From assembly GCF_001006005.1 (NCBI RefSeq), contig NZ_CP011254.1:4464001-4528000 (forward strand): a DNA stretch of 64,000 bases. Reading direction: 5' to 3'. Positions 17,913 through 33,055 of this stretch are shown here, in pieces. This DNA comes from Serratia fonticola. GTDB taxonomy: Bacteria > Pseudomonadota > Gammaproteobacteria > Enterobacterales > Enterobacteriaceae. The position numbers were made by a program, and so were the translations under genes. Every line of letters starts with the position of its first letter. Within the stretch, counting starts at the first letter, position 1. The notes under the pieces are model-generated. The model worked only from the letters and a program-made list of their open reading frames with translations, made no database searches and was not told where the DNA came from.

Positions 17913-18036
17913 GCTGCCAAAGCTCACATTCTGACCTTCAAAAAATAAACAATTACGTAACAATATATGTTTAAACTCCGTATAGACCGCGAGGTTGAGG
18001 TTAAATAGTTGTGATTTTTTTTGGAAGGAATGTGCT

Positions 18037-18762
18037 ATGTCGAACGATAAAACCAACAACTCCCGGCGTGATTTCTTGCTGAAGTCGATGACGCTGATCC
18101 CCGCAGCCGTTATCGGTGGCAGCGGTGTGAGTGCCCTGACGGCGCCCACACCCGCGCTTGCCGCTAGCGATACTCCCAAGCAGGCAGAGTATCAACCGAC
18201 CTTCTTTACCCCCGAAGAGTGGGCCTTTGTTCAGGCGGCGGTCGCGCGATTGATCCCTGCGGACGAGCGCGGCCCGGGCGCTTTGGAAGCAGGCGTGCCG
18301 GAGTTTATCGATCGGCAGATGAATACGCCTTATGCCACCGGTTCAATCTGGTACATGCAAGGGCCGTTCAATCCAGATGTCGCACCGGAAATGGGTTATC
18401 AACTGCCGTTGGTGCCGAAACAGATTTATAACCTGGGTATCAGCGACGCGGATGCCTACAGCAAGAAAACGGCAGGTAAAGTATTCGCCGAGCTGGATGG
18501 CGCACAACAGGATACGCTGTTGCAGAAATTTGAATCCGGTGAGGCCGAGTTTGTGCAACTGCCTGCCAAGCTGTTCTTCTCTTACCTGTTGCAAAACACC
18601 CGTGAAGGTTTTTTCAGCGATCCAATCCATGGCGGTAACAAAGAAATGGTGGGATGGAAGCTGATTAATTTTCCGGGCGCGCGCGCCGACTTTATGGACT
18701 GGGTTGAGCGAGGGGAACGTTATCCCTTCCCACCGGTATCGATTCGTGGGGAGAGGGGGTAA
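18037..18762 (+). CDS. Gluconate 2-dehydrogenase subunit 3 (gamma), Tat-exported
   Basis: The 241-residue protein starts at ATG 18037 after GAAGGA. It carries a twin-arginine leader ([11 protein letters not shown]) with a hydrophobic stretch ending in PALAA at about 43. It is the small chaperone-like subunit of membrane-bound FAD gluconate dehydrogenase, which guides the flavoprotein through the Tat system. It is translated just before the large subunit, with a 2-base gap. It has the [20 protein letters not shown] region typical of the family. Confidence 0.93.
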
Positions 18763-18764
18763 TT

Positions 18765-20549
18765 ATGGCAACGGTAATGAAGAAGCAGGATGTGGTGATC
18801 GTCGGTTTTGGTTGGGTTGGTGCCATTATGGCCAAGGAGTTGACCGAGGCCGGGCTGAACGTGGTGGCGCTTGAGCGTGGCCCGATGCGCGATACCTACC
18901 CAGACGGTTCCTACCCGCAAGTGATCGATGAACTGACCTATAATATCCGCCGCAAGCTGTTCCAGGACCTTTCCAAAAGTACCGTGACCATCCGTCACAA
19001 CACCAGCCAAACCGCAGTGCCTTATCGCCAGTTGGCGGCTTTCCTGCCGGGCACCGGCGTGGGCGGAGCTGGGCTGCACTGGTCTGGCGTGCATTTCCGT
19101 GTCGATCCTATCGAGCTGCGTATGCGCAGCCATTATGAAGAACGCTACGGAAAAAGCTTTATTCCAAAAGACATGACGATCCAGGATTTTGGGGTGAGCT
19201 ACGACGAGCTGGAGCCGTTCTTCGATAAGGCCGAGAAGGTATTCGGCACCTCAGGCACTGCCTGGTCGGTGAAGGGGCAGTTGGTGGGTAAAGACAAAGG
19301 CGGAAACCCCTTTGCACCAGACCGTTCCGACCATTTCCCTCTGCCAGCGCAGAAAAACACCTTCTCCGCTCAATTGTTTGAAAAGGCCGCGCGTGAGGTG
19401 GGTTATCACCCTTACAATCTGCCCTCCGCCAATACCTCAGATTCTTATACCAACCCCTATGGCGCGCAGATGGGGCCTTGTAACTTCTGCGGTTATTGCA
19501 GCGGCTATGCCTGCTACATGTATTCCAAGGCGTCGCCGAACGTCAATATCTTGCCAGCACTGCGGATGGAGAAGCGCTTTGAGCTGCGCACCAACGCTAA
19601 CGTGCTGAAAGTTAACCTGACCGCTGACAAAAGCCGGGCGACCGGGGTCAACTATATCGATGCCCAGGGGCGCGAGATTGAACAACCTGCCGATCTGGTG
19701 ATCCTAGGTGCCTTCCAGTTCCACAATGTGCATCTGATGCTGCTCTCCGGTATTGGCAAACCTTACGATCCACAGACCGGCGAAGGGGTGGTTGGGCGTA
19801 ATTTTGCCTACCAGAACATGACTACCATCAAAGCGTTCTTTGATAAGGACGTCCACACCAACCCGTTTATTGGCGCGGGCGGTAACGGCGTCGGCGTGGA
19901 TGATTTCAACGCGGATAACTTTGACCACGGCAAAGAGGGCTTTGTCGGTGGCTCACCGTTCTGGGTCAACCAGGCGGGTACCAAACCGATCTCCGGCCTG
20001 CCAACGCCTCCTGGCACTCCAGCCTGGGGCAGTAAGTGGAAAGCTGCGGTGGCGGATGCCTATACGCACCATGTCTCTATGGATGCGCATGGCGCGCACC
20101 AGTCCTATCGTAGCAACTACCTCGATCTCGATCCGACCTACAAGAACGTCTTTGGCCAACCGCTGCTACGCATGACCTTCGACTGGCAGGAAAACGACAT
20201 CAAGATGGCGCAGTTTATGTTTAACAAGATGGCCCCGATCGCCAAGGCGATGAACCCGAAACTGATTTCCGGCAGCCCGAAAAACGCCAACAGCCATTTC
20301 GATACCACCAGCTACCAAACTACGCATATGAACGGCGGTGCGGTGATGGGAGAAGATCCCAAGACCAGCGCGGTAAACCGTTATCTGCAAAGCTGGGACG
20401 TGCATAACGTGTTCTCGATCGGCGCATCGGCCTTCCCGCAGGGGCTAGGCTACAACCCGACCGGCACCGTTGCCGCGTTGGCCTACTGGTCTGCCCGCGC
20501 CATTCGCGAGCAGTATTTGAAAAACCCAGGCCCATTGGTGCAGGCATGA
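18765..20549 (+). CDS. Gluconate 2-dehydrogenase flavoprotein subunit (alpha), GMC family
   Basis: The 594-residue protein has the FAD motif GFGWVG at 14-19. Cys residues at 239, 242, 245 and 250 (CNFCGYCSGYAC) resemble the iron-sulfur ligands known in related FAD-dependent sugar dehydrogenases. A C-terminal GMC segment ends NPTGTVAALAYW. It oxidises D-gluconate to 2-ketogluconate in the periplasm and passes electrons to the cytochrome subunit. Export relies on the Tat leader of subunit 3. The downstream cytochrome gene is separated by an insertion element, but this reading frame is intact. Confidence 0.95.
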   Translation: MATVMKKQDVVIVGFGWVGAIMAKELTEAGLNVVALERGPMRDTYPDGSYPQVIDELTYNIRRKLFQDLSKSTVTIRHNTSQTAVPYRQLAAFLPGTGVGGAGLHWSGVHFRVDPIELRMRSHYEERYGKSFIPKDMTIQDFGVSYDELEPFFDKAEKVFGTSGTAWSVKGQLVGKDKGGNPFAPDRSDHFPLPAQKNTFSAQLFEKAAREVGYHPYNLPSANTSDSYTNPYGAQMGPCNFCGYCSGYACYMYSKASPNVNILPALRMEKRFELRTNANVLKVNLTADKSRATGVNYIDAQGREIEQPADLVILGAFQFHNVHLMLLSGIGKPYDPQTGEGVVGRNFAYQNMTTIKAFFDKDVHTNPFIGAGGNGVGVDDFNADNFDHGKEGFVGGSPFWVNQAGTKPISGLPTPPGTPAWGSKWKAAVADAYTHHVSMDAHGAHQSYRSNYLDLDPTYKNVFGQPLLRMTFDWQENDIKMAQFMFNKMAPIAKAMNPKLISGSPKNANSHFDTTSYQTTHMNGGAVMGEDPKTSAVNRYLQSWDVHNVFSIGASAFPQGLGYNPTGTVAALAYWSARAIREQYLKNPGPLVQA

Positions 20550-20560
20550 GGATGCGAGTG

Positions 20561-20700
20561 TTGACTGCTCCCCGCCCTAAAGGGCGAGGACTCCCACTTC
20601 ACAGAGCCGAACCTAAGCCGCGTGCTGCGATTCAGGATTTACAGGCTCTCCGTGGGCTAACACTGCCAGCCCGGCAGCTTTGATATTGCGCGCCGCGTTG
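20561..20700 (-). ncRNA. Predicted TnpB guide RNA (omega RNA) scaffold
   Basis: In TnpB elements the guide RNA overlaps the 3' end of tnpB and finishes at the right end. Here that region contains the CGCCCT hairpin and finishes ...CAGTCAA. The guide would then read into flanking DNA, the minus strand of about 20541-20560, which is the last codons of the GADH flavoprotein gene. The 5' boundary is a guess. Confidence 0.45.
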
Positions 20701-21743
20701 ATATCTCGATCATGCTCAGCACCGCACTCAGGGCAGTGCCAGTTTCGAACATCAAGTGGCATTTTTTCCATGATGAAGCCGCAACAGCTACAGCGTTTTG
20801 ACGACGGGAAAAACTGATCTATGGCAACGACAGAACGTCCAGACTCTTTCGCCTTGTACTGTAGCTGCCGCACAAATTCACCCCATCCGGCATCGGATAT
20901 CGCTTTCGACAGTTTGGGATTACGGATCATGTTTTTCACTTTCAGGGATTCAACGCAAACAACTTGGTTCTCGTTTATCAGTTTGCGGGACAACTTATGC
21001 AGGCTGTCCATTCGGCAATCAGCAATTTTAGCGTGGAGCTTTGCGACTTTTAATCTTGCTTTAGCACGGTTCCTTGAACCTTTTTGCTTCTTGCTCAATC
21101 GGCGCTGTAACAACGCTAAACGTTTCGCGTACTTCGCCGTGTGGCGGGGATTGCCGGTTTTAAATCCGCTATCTGTGACGAACAAATCTTTTAAACCCAT
21201 ATCAATGCCCGTCATTTTTGCGGTAACAGGCAGTGATTTTGATTCAAATTCGCACAAGCAGGACACGAAATATCGACCTGATGCGTCTTTGGAAATGGTG
21301 ACGGTTGAAGGTGTCGAGGGGAGTTCACGACTCCAGCGAACATGGAGTGGCGTTGTGCTTTTAGCCATGTACAGCGTGCCGTTACGGTATTTAAAGGCAC
21401 TCGCCGTAAATTCAGCAGATTGTTTGTGGTGTTTGCTTTTGAATGCTGGGTACCTGGCACGCCCCGCAAAGAAGTTAGAAAAGGCGGTCTGTTGGTGGCG
21501 AAGAGTCTGCTGTAACGGGACGCAGGAAACATCATTCAGCCAGGTCAATTCAGGCTCTTTTTTTAGGGCGGTTAGTCGGGCATTGGCCTGAATGTAGCCG
21601 ATCTTCTCCTGCCGTTCGCGGTACGCATCAGTTCGCCAGCGAAGAACTGAATTGTAGACAAAACGCACACAGCCGAAGGTGTGAGCTAAAAACTCAATCT
21701 GATCCTGTGTTGGATAAAACCGATATTTGTAGGCGCGTTTCAT
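20613..21743 (-). CDS. tnpB: RNA-guided endonuclease TnpB (IS200/IS605 family)
   Basis: The 376-residue protein starts at ATG 21743 with the N-terminal helix-turn-helix segment MKRAYKYRFYPT. All three RuvC acids are present: D181 in TGIDMGLKD, E265 in VCVESLKV and D347 in HDRDINAARN. The zinc finger has C318/C321 and C337/C340. It therefore looks catalytically intact. TnpB cuts DNA matching its guide next to a short target motif and favours retention of the element. It is opposite in direction to the host operon and has no TnpA partner here. Longer upstream frame 21744-21872 is the element's end, not coding. Confidence 0.93.
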   Translation of the reverse strand: MKRAYKYRFYPTQDQIEFLAHTFGCVRFVYNSVLRWRTDAYRERQEKIGYIQANARLTALKKEPELTWLNDVSCVPLQQTLRHQQTAFSNFFAGRARYPAFKSKHHKQSAEFTASAFKYRNGTLYMAKSTTPLHVRWSRELPSTPSTVTISKDASGRYFVSCLCEFESKSLPVTAKMTGIDMGLKDLFVTDSGFKTGNPRHTAKYAKRLALLQRRLSKKQKGSRNRAKARLKVAKLHAKIADCRMDSLHKLSRKLINENQVVCVESLKVKNMIRNPKLSKAISDAGWGEFVRQLQYKAKESGRSVVAIDQFFPSSKRCSCCGFIMEKMPLDVRNWHCPECGAEHDRDINAARNIKAAGLAVLAHGEPVNPESQHAA

Positions 21744-21850
21744 ATGTACAAAATTACAGGAGTTATAGTGAAAAGACAAAAAGAAGTTAGCTTGAAAACC
21801 GCCTCCTTTCCTCCCCGGCCTAAAGGCCGAGGTTTCCCGGAGGCAATCTG

Positions 21851-23185
21851 ATGAAAGCTTTGGTTCCCGCACTGGTTCTCAGTGCACTGAGTTTTTCCGT
21901 ATTGGCGCAAGACGCGACGGTCAGCAGCGAATTGCTCAAACGCGGTGAATATCTGGCACGTGCCGGTGACTGTGTGGCCTGCCACACCAATGGCAAAAGC
22001 GGCGTGCCCTTTGCTGGTGGTTTGGCGATGGAAACGCCGATTGGCACTATCTATTCCACCAACATCACCCCGGACAAAACCACCGGCATTGGCGATTACA
22101 GTTTTGAAGATTTCGACAATGCGGTACGCAAAGGCGTCGCCAAGAGCGGCAGCACCCTGTACCCGGCGATGCCTTATCCTTCGTTTGCGCTGGTGAAAGA
22201 GGAGGATATGCGTGCCATGTATGCCTATTTCATGCACGGCGTGCAGCCAGTCGAACAAGCGAACCAAGACTCCGATATTCCCTGGCCGCTGTCCATGCGT
22301 TGGCCACTGCACATCTGGCGTTCGATGTTTGCACCAACACCGGCCGATTTTGCGGCCAATGCCAACGCCGATCCGGTTATCGAACGTGGCCGCTATCTGG
22401 TCGAAGGGTTGGGGCACTGTGGTGCATGCCATACGCCGCGTAGCCTGACCATGCAAGAGAAGGCGTTGAGCAATACGGAAGGGGATGATTACCTGTCCGG
22501 CAGCAACGCGCCGATCGACGGTTGGGTGGCATCCAGCCTGCGTGGCGACAATAAAGATGGTCTAGGTACCTGGAGCGAGAGTGAACTGACCGAGTTCCTG
22601 AAAACTGGCCGTAACGATAAGTCGGTGGTATTTGGTGGCATGAGCGACGTGGTCGAACATAGCCTGCAATATCTCAGCGATGAGGATTTGAGCGCGATTG
22701 CCCGCTATCTGAAAACCTTGCCGCCGAAAGACGGTAAACAGCAGGCCGCCCCGGTTGAAGACAGCGTCGCCAAAGATTTGTGGCGTGGTAACGACAGCAA
22801 GCCCGGCGCCGCGCTGTATGTCGATAACTGTGCCGCTTGCCATCGTACCGATGGAGTTGGTTACAAGCGTGCCTTCCCGGCGCTGAAGGGCAACCCGGTG
22901 GTGCAGACCGAAGACGCGACCTCGCTGATCCACATTGTGCTGGTCGGCAATACTACGCCAGCGGTGAAAGGGGCGGTTTCCAACCTCACCATGCCGCCGT
23001 TTGGCTGGCGCTTGAACGACCAGCAGGTAGCGGACGTGGTGAATTTTATCCGTTCCAGTTGGGGTAACAACGCCAAAGCTATCAGCGCCTCCGATGTGGC
23101 TGACGTGCGTAAGGATCGTTCAATAATTCGCGATGAGAAGGCGATGGGCAGCTCTGCTGTCCCAGAGCCAGTGGGTGCCAAGTAA
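21851..23185 (+). CDS. Gluconate 2-dehydrogenase cytochrome c subunit (triheme)
   Basis: The 444-residue protein has a Sec signal (cleavage after about VLA-19). Three heme motifs follow: CVACH 41-45, CGACH 190-194 and CAACH 327-331. It carries electrons from the FAD subunit to ubiquinone at the periplasmic face of the inner membrane. The ribosome site GGAGG 7-8 bases upstream lies exactly at the TnpB element's end. Because the element and its hairpins separate it from the rest of the operon, its transcription may be reduced or driven from the element. Confidence 0.94.
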   Translation: MKALVPALVLSALSFSVLAQDATVSSELLKRGEYLARAGDCVACHTNGKSGVPFAGGLAMETPIGTIYSTNITPDKTTGIGDYSFEDFDNAVRKGVAKSGSTLYPAMPYPSFALVKEEDMRAMYAYFMHGVQPVEQANQDSDIPWPLSMRWPLHIWRSMFAPTPADFAANANADPVIERGRYLVEGLGHCGACHTPRSLTMQEKALSNTEGDDYLSGSNAPIDGWVASSLRGDNKDGLGTWSESELTEFLKTGRNDKSVVFGGMSDVVEHSLQYLSDEDLSAIARYLKTLPPKDGKQQAAPVEDSVAKDLWRGNDSKPGAALYVDNCAACHRTDGVGYKRAFPALKGNPVVQTEDATSLIHIVLVGNTTPAVKGAVSNLTMPPFGWRLNDQQVADVVNFIRSSWGNNAKAISASDVADVRKDRSIIRDEKAMGSSAVPEPVGAK

Positions 23186-32799: not shown

Positions 32800-32881
32800 T
32801 GTTTGTTCCCAATACAGATATTGACTTTTTTGGCTGGCGCTTTAACACTGGTTGCCACTCTATCGACAAGGTATCACCAAC

Positions 32882-32926
32882 ATGCACGCTGTTATTTTCC
32901 GCTTCTTTTTTTACTTTAGCGCCTGA
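32882..32926 (+). CDS. pheM: Phenylalanyl-tRNA synthetase operon leader peptide PheM
   Basis: The 14-residue peptide reads [14 protein letters not shown], with five Phe among the last nine residues. E. coli PheM is [14 protein letters not shown], so it is a clear ortholog. When charged tRNA-Phe is scarce the ribosome stalls on the Phe codons. This prevents the terminator 48 bases downstream and allows pheST transcription. Confidence 0.95.
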   Translation: [14 protein letters not shown]

Positions 32927-32973
32927 CTTCAGGAGGCTTTGCGCGTAAGAAAAGAAACGGAAAGTAGCGCCCA

Positions 32974-32998
32974 AGCCTCCCAAGTGGAGGCTTTTTTG
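32974..32998 (+). terminator. pheST attenuator terminator
   Basis: AGCCTCC / GGAGGCT with a CAAGT loop is followed by six T. It lies between pheM and pheS, the attenuator position. Confidence 0.92.
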
Positions 32999-33055
32999 TT
33001 TTTGGCCACCTTCTGCGCCTTTCGGGCCCGCGGCACTTGCTTGGCTACGGCTTGA

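Follow-up and report, generated by a model that had tools for sequence, protein, structure and literature searches.

A TnpB-only element of Serratia fonticola that inserts at a start codon and whose ends look built to keep the next gene translated

We analyzed a window of 64,000 nucleotides from Serratia fonticola (contig NZ_CP011254.1, positions 4,464,001 to 4,528,000), in which a TnpB-only element of the IS200/IS605 family lies immediately ahead of the start codon of a cytochrome c gene; coordinates throughout are those of the window, and L plus a number is the label of a collected locus. The ends of this element look built to keep the next gene translated. The best explanation, which we consider likely, is that a TCAT-targeting TnpB element makes insertions at start codons tolerable by supplying translation initiation. 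We also hold it probable, if a little less so, that a large TnpB clade has evolved a portable translation-start region: the start codon itself would be the target, the left end would give a Shine-Dalgarno sequence (SD) and its spacing together with a leader cistron or a three-way junction, and the trait would track the target switch (TCAT versus TTAT/TTAC). The ends, empty sites, target, SD, leader frame, their conservation, and the contrast with sister elements are established directly by the comparisons below.

Element boundaries, target, and TnpB

The whole element spans 1290 bp (20561-21850, minus strand). Its termini, TTGACTG... at 20561 and ...GGAGGCAATCTG at 21850, were set by comparing the three copies in the 6.0 Mb host genome, together with the empty sites of relatives. 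The two other copies are 98.6% and 98.1% identical to the window copy, and the three differ pairwise at 18, 25, and 23 of 1295 aligned positions. Both ends are common to all three copies, with divergence beyond them, and in each case (3/3) ATGAA, holding a conserved start codon, follows the element directly. Empty sites within the genus were found for all three: the cytochrome gene has three, a ClC channel gene (named from its Pfam match) also has three, and the third copy's gene, which we read by eye as carbonic anhydrase-like, has six. The position of the ATG is unchanged at each empty site and no target base is duplicated, so insertion was precise.

At the cytochrome gene, the empty site joins GCGAG(T/C)G to ATGAA in three relatives that have the operon (flavoprotein 97-99% identical). 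The element was found in only one of the seven genomes of the genus that were searched, namely the window's own; an earlier sequence-only reading of this DNA had proposed comparison with genomes lacking the element, and these uninterrupted sites show that the arrangement is not fixed across the genus. The flavoprotein stop TGA is at 20547-20549, and the left boundary of the element lies 11 bases downstream. Its right boundary adjoins the cytochrome c ATG at 21851 with no gap. The sequence-only reading had put these distances at about 12 and about 6 bases; the first was roughly right and the second falls away, while its statement that nothing coding is damaged holds, the element fitting between the flavoprotein stop and the cytochrome ATG.

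The copies and empty sites define the target motif as TTCAT (21851-21855, minus strand), whose core TCAT corresponds, on the opposite strand, to the start codon ATG and one further base, A. The left-end hairpin (IP-L) is at 21813-21832 and is followed by the left guide GAAA at 21833-21836, both on the minus strand; by the pairing rule of IS608, this guide predicts the target TCAT (PMC5934647). The right end has a hairpin at 20569-20590 (minus strand) and the terminus TTGA at 20561-20564 (TCAA on the tnpB strand), common to the three copies and relatives. The 16-nt flank at 20545-20560 (minus strand), by its position the expected guide of the right-end RNA, adjoins TCAT in the empty site; the ISDra2 reRNA likewise ends in about 16 nt of flank (PMC8612924). 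The features of an IS1341-type element are thus found here: subterminal hairpins, a tetranucleotide guide (GAAA) matching the target (TCAT), and insertion without target duplication.

The tnpB gene (20613-21743, minus strand) encodes an intact protein of 376 aa. PF12323, PF01385, and PF07282 score over their cut-offs (N-terminal helix-turn-helix, OrfB RuvC, and TNB zinc ribbon), as does guided_TnpB of NCBIfam, while IS200_TnpB reaches 397.6 bits, below its 425. The protein is related to the solved TnpB structures 8bf8 and 8h1j, which we take to be ISDra2 TnpB. Residues D181, E265, and D347 and cysteines C318/C321/C337/C340 are invariant in 12 aligned sequences, the window's included, bearing out the residues on which the sequence-only reading had called this TnpB active-looking; activity itself is a reading of these residues. 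If active, TnpB should cut the empty site beside TCAT and thereby retain the element, as its RNA-guided role would suggest (PMC8612924). One could instead imagine that TnpB has been domesticated and, in the manner of TldR, uses its RNA guide to repress the operon or its alleles, given that TnpB adjoins a host gene and that the flank guide would point to the empty site. TldR-type exapted TnpBs are defined by loss of the RuvC catalytic residues. The window TnpB keeps all three, and the three copies are near-identical and dispersed, so we regard such a role as extremely improbable.

As the sequence-only reading noted, the element contains no Y1 transposase; three Y1 genes lie elsewhere in the genome. 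Two were scanned and are IS200-type, and the third is identical to one of these. A nearby Y1 partner was considered and rejected: a search for exact end motifs found none of them in the 3.3-kb loci surrounding these Y1 genes. With one Y1 as the tblastn query against the collected loci, L222 was the only match besides the three Y1 loci; it holds a 50%-identical TnpB element with another Y1 gene nearby and is possibly a fuller relative.

Shine-Dalgarno sequence, leader frame, and structure of the left end

On the plus strand, the left end carries GGAGG (21839-21843), an SD 7 nt before the host ATG. The probable native ribosome site of the cytochrome gene, GAGGA at 20548-20552 (a role we infer from the empty sites), is now 1.3 kb from the ATG and has been replaced by this GGAGG. 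The sequence-only reading had the element's terminal hairpin abut the GGAGG and supposed that expression of the cytochrome gene may depend on the element; the ribosome site does now depend on it, but that reading missed that GGAGG belongs to the element. A leader frame (21768-21851, plus strand) runs through this stretch, with a GTG start, 27 codons, and a stop TGA that shares its A with the host ATG (TGATG); AGGAG at 21758-21762 is its predicted ribosome site. The TGATG overlap is present in all three genome copies. In the mRNA, the outer stem GCCTCC (21801-21806)/GGAGGC (21839-21844) is predicted to hide the GGAGG (21801-21844; -24.7 kcal/mol, z -3.0).

These features recur among enterobacterial relatives. 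We inspected 18 left ends, three of which had no clear boundary; in all 15 others, stop and start overlap, the leader frame is open (the other plus frames are open in 3 and 0), and an SD-like motif precedes a GTG or TTG leader start. In L035 and the L038 group, the leader terminates, its frame unchanged, at the TGA within ATGA, which means that an ATGA target always closes it. The L038 alignment has one deleted and one inserted base that jointly restore the leader frame. Outside the 15, a Klebsiella phage record (L041) has an annotated small frame, ORF_58, ending on the A of the next ATG. GGAGG pairs with a C-rich arm in all four enterobacterial left ends that were folded: the window (z -3.0, for its 67-nt core), L034 (z -2.7), L036 (z -4.2), and L040 (a 20-bp stem, z -9.9). 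The whole left end of the window, 137 nt, does not have an unusual fold (z -1.27). Many relatives also have an inverted repeat TCACAT...ATGTGA beside the tnpB start, which encloses the leader SD in E. coli-type left ends and which the window keeps only partly (21744-21775).

A second subtype places its SD differently. In Halomonas-, Azotobacter-, and phage-type elements, GGAGG is about 80 nt from the ATG yet directly 5' of a stem, P1, with the ATG about 10 nt 3' of it. We aligned 24 of 32 candidate left ends (23 distinct), leaving out two without a boundary and six judged by eye to be harder to align. The alignment forms a three-way junction in which 96.5% of cells are paired and 10 of 21 pairs show two-sided changes; covariation is 0.322 versus 0.115 in shuffles (0/500), and G-U exceeds A-C on the mRNA strand (8 versus 2). 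Single folds are weak (z -1.46 and -1.42), and the structure of this subtype rests on covariation; in L207, the SD is partly paired in the minimum-energy fold and free in the centroid. Of the other two stems, P3 is the hairpin of the transposase and P2 resembles the second hairpin in the left end of IS608, an element that has both (PMC5934647).

Start codons and targets among relatives

The design of an element adjoining a start codon is shared by relatives whose hosts range from Enterobacterales to Streptomyces. A relative that spans 80% or more of the query is present in 382 of 5426 E. coli genomes, with about 80% identity among the matches listed; of 388 places, 345 are on the chromosome, and ybhB is named in all 20 matches listed. 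The empty site, inspected in one case (L233), reads AAGGAGGGTTC followed by ATGAAACTC. The filled site, also inspected in one case (L034), reads AAGGAGGGCTC, the element, and ATGAAACTC, with GGAGGCATTCTA at the element's end. The ybhB copy thus separates the native AAGGAGG from the ATG and places its own GGAGG there.

An annotated coding sequence starts exactly at the element end in 8 of the 12 regions fetched first and in 7 of 10 plasmid regions (hand-chosen, mostly for annotation, from the best 40 of 145 records), making 10 distinct sites. The first eight genes are ybhB, traX twice, trbC, gpU twice, a Klebsiella hypothetical gene, and a P1-like head gene; the plasmid seven are rfbB three times (in one case with TTG, not ATG, at the element end), a FAD oxidoreductase, a LysR regulator, a hypothetical gene, and again the P1-like head gene. 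Other regions do not fit: L039 has no gene, the annotated start in L041 is 21 nt upstream of the ATG in the same frame, the next annotated gene is further on in L042 and L043, L247 has no annotated gene there, and L251 and L253 have no annotated start at the end and left ends that look to be of another target type.

For a wider survey, we added three sets to the earlier loci: the best 80 of 553 matches of a genome search, the best 80 of 130 of a viral search, and 27 places, in 19 of 394 genomes, of an order-level search. Of the pooled loci, 206 had a tnpB match. For those with at least 120 nt beyond the tnpB start, the target was predicted from the four bases 5' of the left hairpin by the IS608 rule, in which GL AAAG goes with CL TTAC, A+16 pairing with T-3 and A+17 with T-4 (PMC5934647). 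After collapsing, 86 distinct flanks remained, of which 74 predict TCAT and 12 predict TTAT or TTAC; the predicted target is in place as ATGA in 63 of the 74 and as another target in 9 of the 12. The 63 are not all separate sites: L140/L128 and L162/L174, at least, are allelic pairs.

The 63 elements open reading frames (ORFs) more often than other ATGA sites do. ORFs of at least 30, 50, 75, and 100 codons begin at 53, 51, 49, and 46 of the 63 ends, compared with 55, 41, 31, and 25% of the 1482 ATGA sites in the flanks. When one random flank ATGA was drawn per locus, ORFs of 50 or more codons averaged 29.4 with a maximum of 42 (20,000 draws), versus the 51 observed. At loci below 60% GC, 21 of 29 elements start an ORF of 100 or more codons, versus 19 of 175 control ATGA sites outside long ORFs (Fisher p 1e-11). 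Pfam was applied to 20 of 44 downstream ORFs (100-520 codons): 18 match at E 0.001, two of them (L084 and L112) below the family cut-off, and two have no match. The domain begins at residue 1 or 2 in four (SelB, UDP-glucose dehydrogenase, MerR, and phage gpZ) and by residue 10 in three more (EamA transporter, LysR, and thiolase).

The SD follows the target. By a fixed rule, an SD is present in 58 of the 63 elements with ATGA in place versus 0 of the 9 with another target (ATAA or GTAA) in place. We counted an SD as near if the motif is 3-11 nt before the ATG and as bridged if it is directly 5' of a stem whose other arm precedes the ATG; 39 elements have a near SD, 19 a bridged SD, and five neither. 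The near rule alone, to which this comparison is confined, gives 39 of 63 versus 173 of 916 flank ATGA sites. Target class changes about eight times on the tree, at least four of them on supported branches (78 rows, six labelled by eye), and the SD follows the target in 3.2 of 4 well-supported independent pairs, with no opposing pairs. L046, L050, and L158 (the last labelled by eye) group with the window element in a single supported clade, inside which gain or loss must have taken place.

The sister elements (L046, L050, L057, L158, L187, L211, L061, L088, and L098) end at ATAA or GTAA, that is, at TTAT or TTAC on the tnpB strand, and have no SD there; since ATAA contains a stop codon, elements of that type might favor gene ends. 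L066 fits a TGAT target under the same guide rule. Six loci (L053, L201, L203, L228, L210, and L043) combine a TCAT-type left end with GTAA, ATAA, ATGT, ACGT, or GTGA where ATGA is expected, which may reflect a relaxed target, later change, or rearrangement. In L148, a viral contig, the left hairpin continues into GGGGAGCAGTCA, which resembles a right-end terminus, as if one end had been replaced.

A simpler account is that this is an ordinary insertion sequence with a TCAT target, whose survivors sit at gene edges by selection and whose G-rich motif is a by-product of the hairpin or of transposase recognition without translation function. The IS608-type guide rule explains target and hairpins, the right-end TTGA is shared with sister elements, and exceptions without a gene exist (e.g., L039). 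Against it stand the contrast of 58/63 with 0/9, the differing location of the SD motif from subtype to subtype, the start-codon excess that persists against ATGA sites not spanned by long ORFs, and a leader frame kept with both start and SD. We judge this account unlikely.

Several observations nonetheless weigh against our own explanation. In the survey, 77 loci were dropped because the hairpin finder gave no guide in three classes (several have a clear ATGA end by eye and a misplaced hairpin), the first-ATGA rule was of our own choosing, 11 of the 74 TCAT-guide elements have no ATGA at the end, and 12 of the 63 lead into no ORF of 50 codons. Purifying selection removes insertions within genes, for which the control with non-spanned sites corrects only partly. 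The tree-based sign test for SD and target is not significant (median p 0.25), with too few independent pairs. For the leader, the minus frames of the 15 left ends are open in 10, 10, and 3, so openness is not unique to the leader frame, and synonymous changes are in modest excess there, at 30% compared with 17% and 23% for the other plus frames, in pairs that are not independent. For the bridged subtype, extra pair types are not unusual (121/500 shuffles), P3 and probably P2 act in DNA transposition, so covariation is no proof of RNA function, and by eye a P1-like stem is apparently present in sister elements without an SD. Transcription adds a further reservation, given below.

Host operon, proposed mechanism, and wider meaning

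The host operon was named from Pfam alone (Gluconate_2-dh3, GMC oxidoreductase, and cytochrome c). It comprises, all on the plus strand, a gluconate 2-dehydrogenase subunit 3-like gene (17995-18762 as the ORF was listed, with the true start perhaps at a later ATG), the flavoprotein gene (a GMC oxidoreductase, 18765-20549), and the cytochrome c gene (21851-23185), the last also defined by the empty sites. A second flavoprotein paralogue, 59% identical, is encoded in the same genome (C1:4380419-4382191, L011). Rfam matched no family at the element; its sole match in the whole window is Phe_leader, the phenylalanine leader peptide, at 32876-33000 (79 bits, gathering score 55).

Another possibility is that the element creates regulated or polar cytochrome expression and so modulates a respiratory operon. 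The element-borne SD is predicted to be hidden in a stem, so expression could vary with leader translation, and three terminator-like sites on the plus strand lie inside the tnpB stretch (20663, 21068, and 21142). Because of such sites, read-through into the cytochrome gene, and its mRNA, may be reduced even with translation kept, which is the reservation mentioned above. Between 20400 and 21950, there are seven terminator-like sites on both strands versus 2.5 (sd 1.7) in shuffles, all of them consensus matches only; none is in the two element ends, and two fall within the first 41 bases of the cytochrome gene. An outward promoter in the left end was rejected, there being no promoter-like site on the plus strand from 20400 to 21950. 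The lack of such a site speaks against regulated or polar expression, as does the presence of the element in one of seven genomes of the genus; moreover, the same end structure occurs before unrelated genes in other hosts, so it was not made for this operon. We consider a role of this kind quite improbable.

The TCAA of the right end matches the sequence at which IS608 is cleaved on its right side (PMC5934647). In some relatives, the TGA of the right-end TTGA is the stop of the upstream gene, and where that gene overlapped ATGA by four bases, the TGA of the element puts back an in-frame stop. Frames that have a start and at least 100 codons end at TTGA in 20 of 63 cases versus 14 and 8 in the other frames, a weak contrast, the hosts being GC-rich. 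We rejected TTGA as a special adaptation because sister elements also have it, a further point against our reading.

Returning to translation initiation supplied by the element, we propose the following mechanism. Because TCAT is ATGA on the opposite strand, i.e., a start codon plus A, insertion would often place the element directly before a gene's ATG, cutting it off from the native ribosome site. The left end would compensate by offering an SD at working distance on the host strand. In the enterobacterial subtype, where the SD would be folded into a stem, a leader with its own ribosome site and start would cross the stem and end on the host ATG, and a ribosome finishing the leader could open the stem and re-start on the host gene. 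The right-end TTGA would provide a stop codon in the frame in which an upstream gene overlapping ATGA would have ended. The insertion would in this way imitate an operon junction and hence be tolerated, while flank-guided TnpB would retain the copy. That SD and leader work, with coupling at the host ATG, is what we infer from sequence. This mechanism has natural counterparts in translational coupling at TGATG or ATGA junctions, with re-starting on the overlapping ATG, and in genes 25 and 38 of phage T4, which have hairpin-bridged ribosome sites in which a fold brings the SD near the ATG. The proposed working is alike in both cases, with the difference that here the device travels on a mobile element.

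In kind, the element is a known one. It shares with TnpB-only (IS1341-type) members of IS200/IS605 the helix-turn-helix, RuvC, and zinc ribbon domains, subterminal hairpins, a guide-coded target, and precise insertion without duplication; it differs in targeting the start codon and, in this subtype, in a left end that carries a ribosome site and leader frame. Like IS608, it has a left guide that pairs with the target, a right end TCAA, and, in its relatives of the bridged subtype, a second left-end hairpin (PMC5934647). The targets of ISDra2 (TTGAT; PMC8612924) and IS608 (TTAC; PMC5934647), however, are not start codons, and both elements have TnpA. The gipA element of Gifsy-1 (L040) shows 78.3% DNA identity over the whole element, has the same kind of ends, and directly precedes the start of a lambda gpU homolog, although records name it a virulence factor or transposase and its stem is a perfect 20-bp hairpin. 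Among the papers listed by our searches of PMC literature, outside which most subscription papers lie, none was found to describe TnpB elements that target start codons or carry a ribosome site of their own.

Altogether, we think that the start-codon and SD trait of this known kind of element is functional. The start codon is among the most sensitive points in a genome, and the element seems to pair a target that marks it with a built-in repair. If this is true, it would amount to translation-level camouflage for a transposon and would explain tnpB genes inside working operons. It is also a warning that the ribosome site of a host gene can come from an element, and it would offer a natural series of structured translation-start regions that can be compared against a switch of transposon target.

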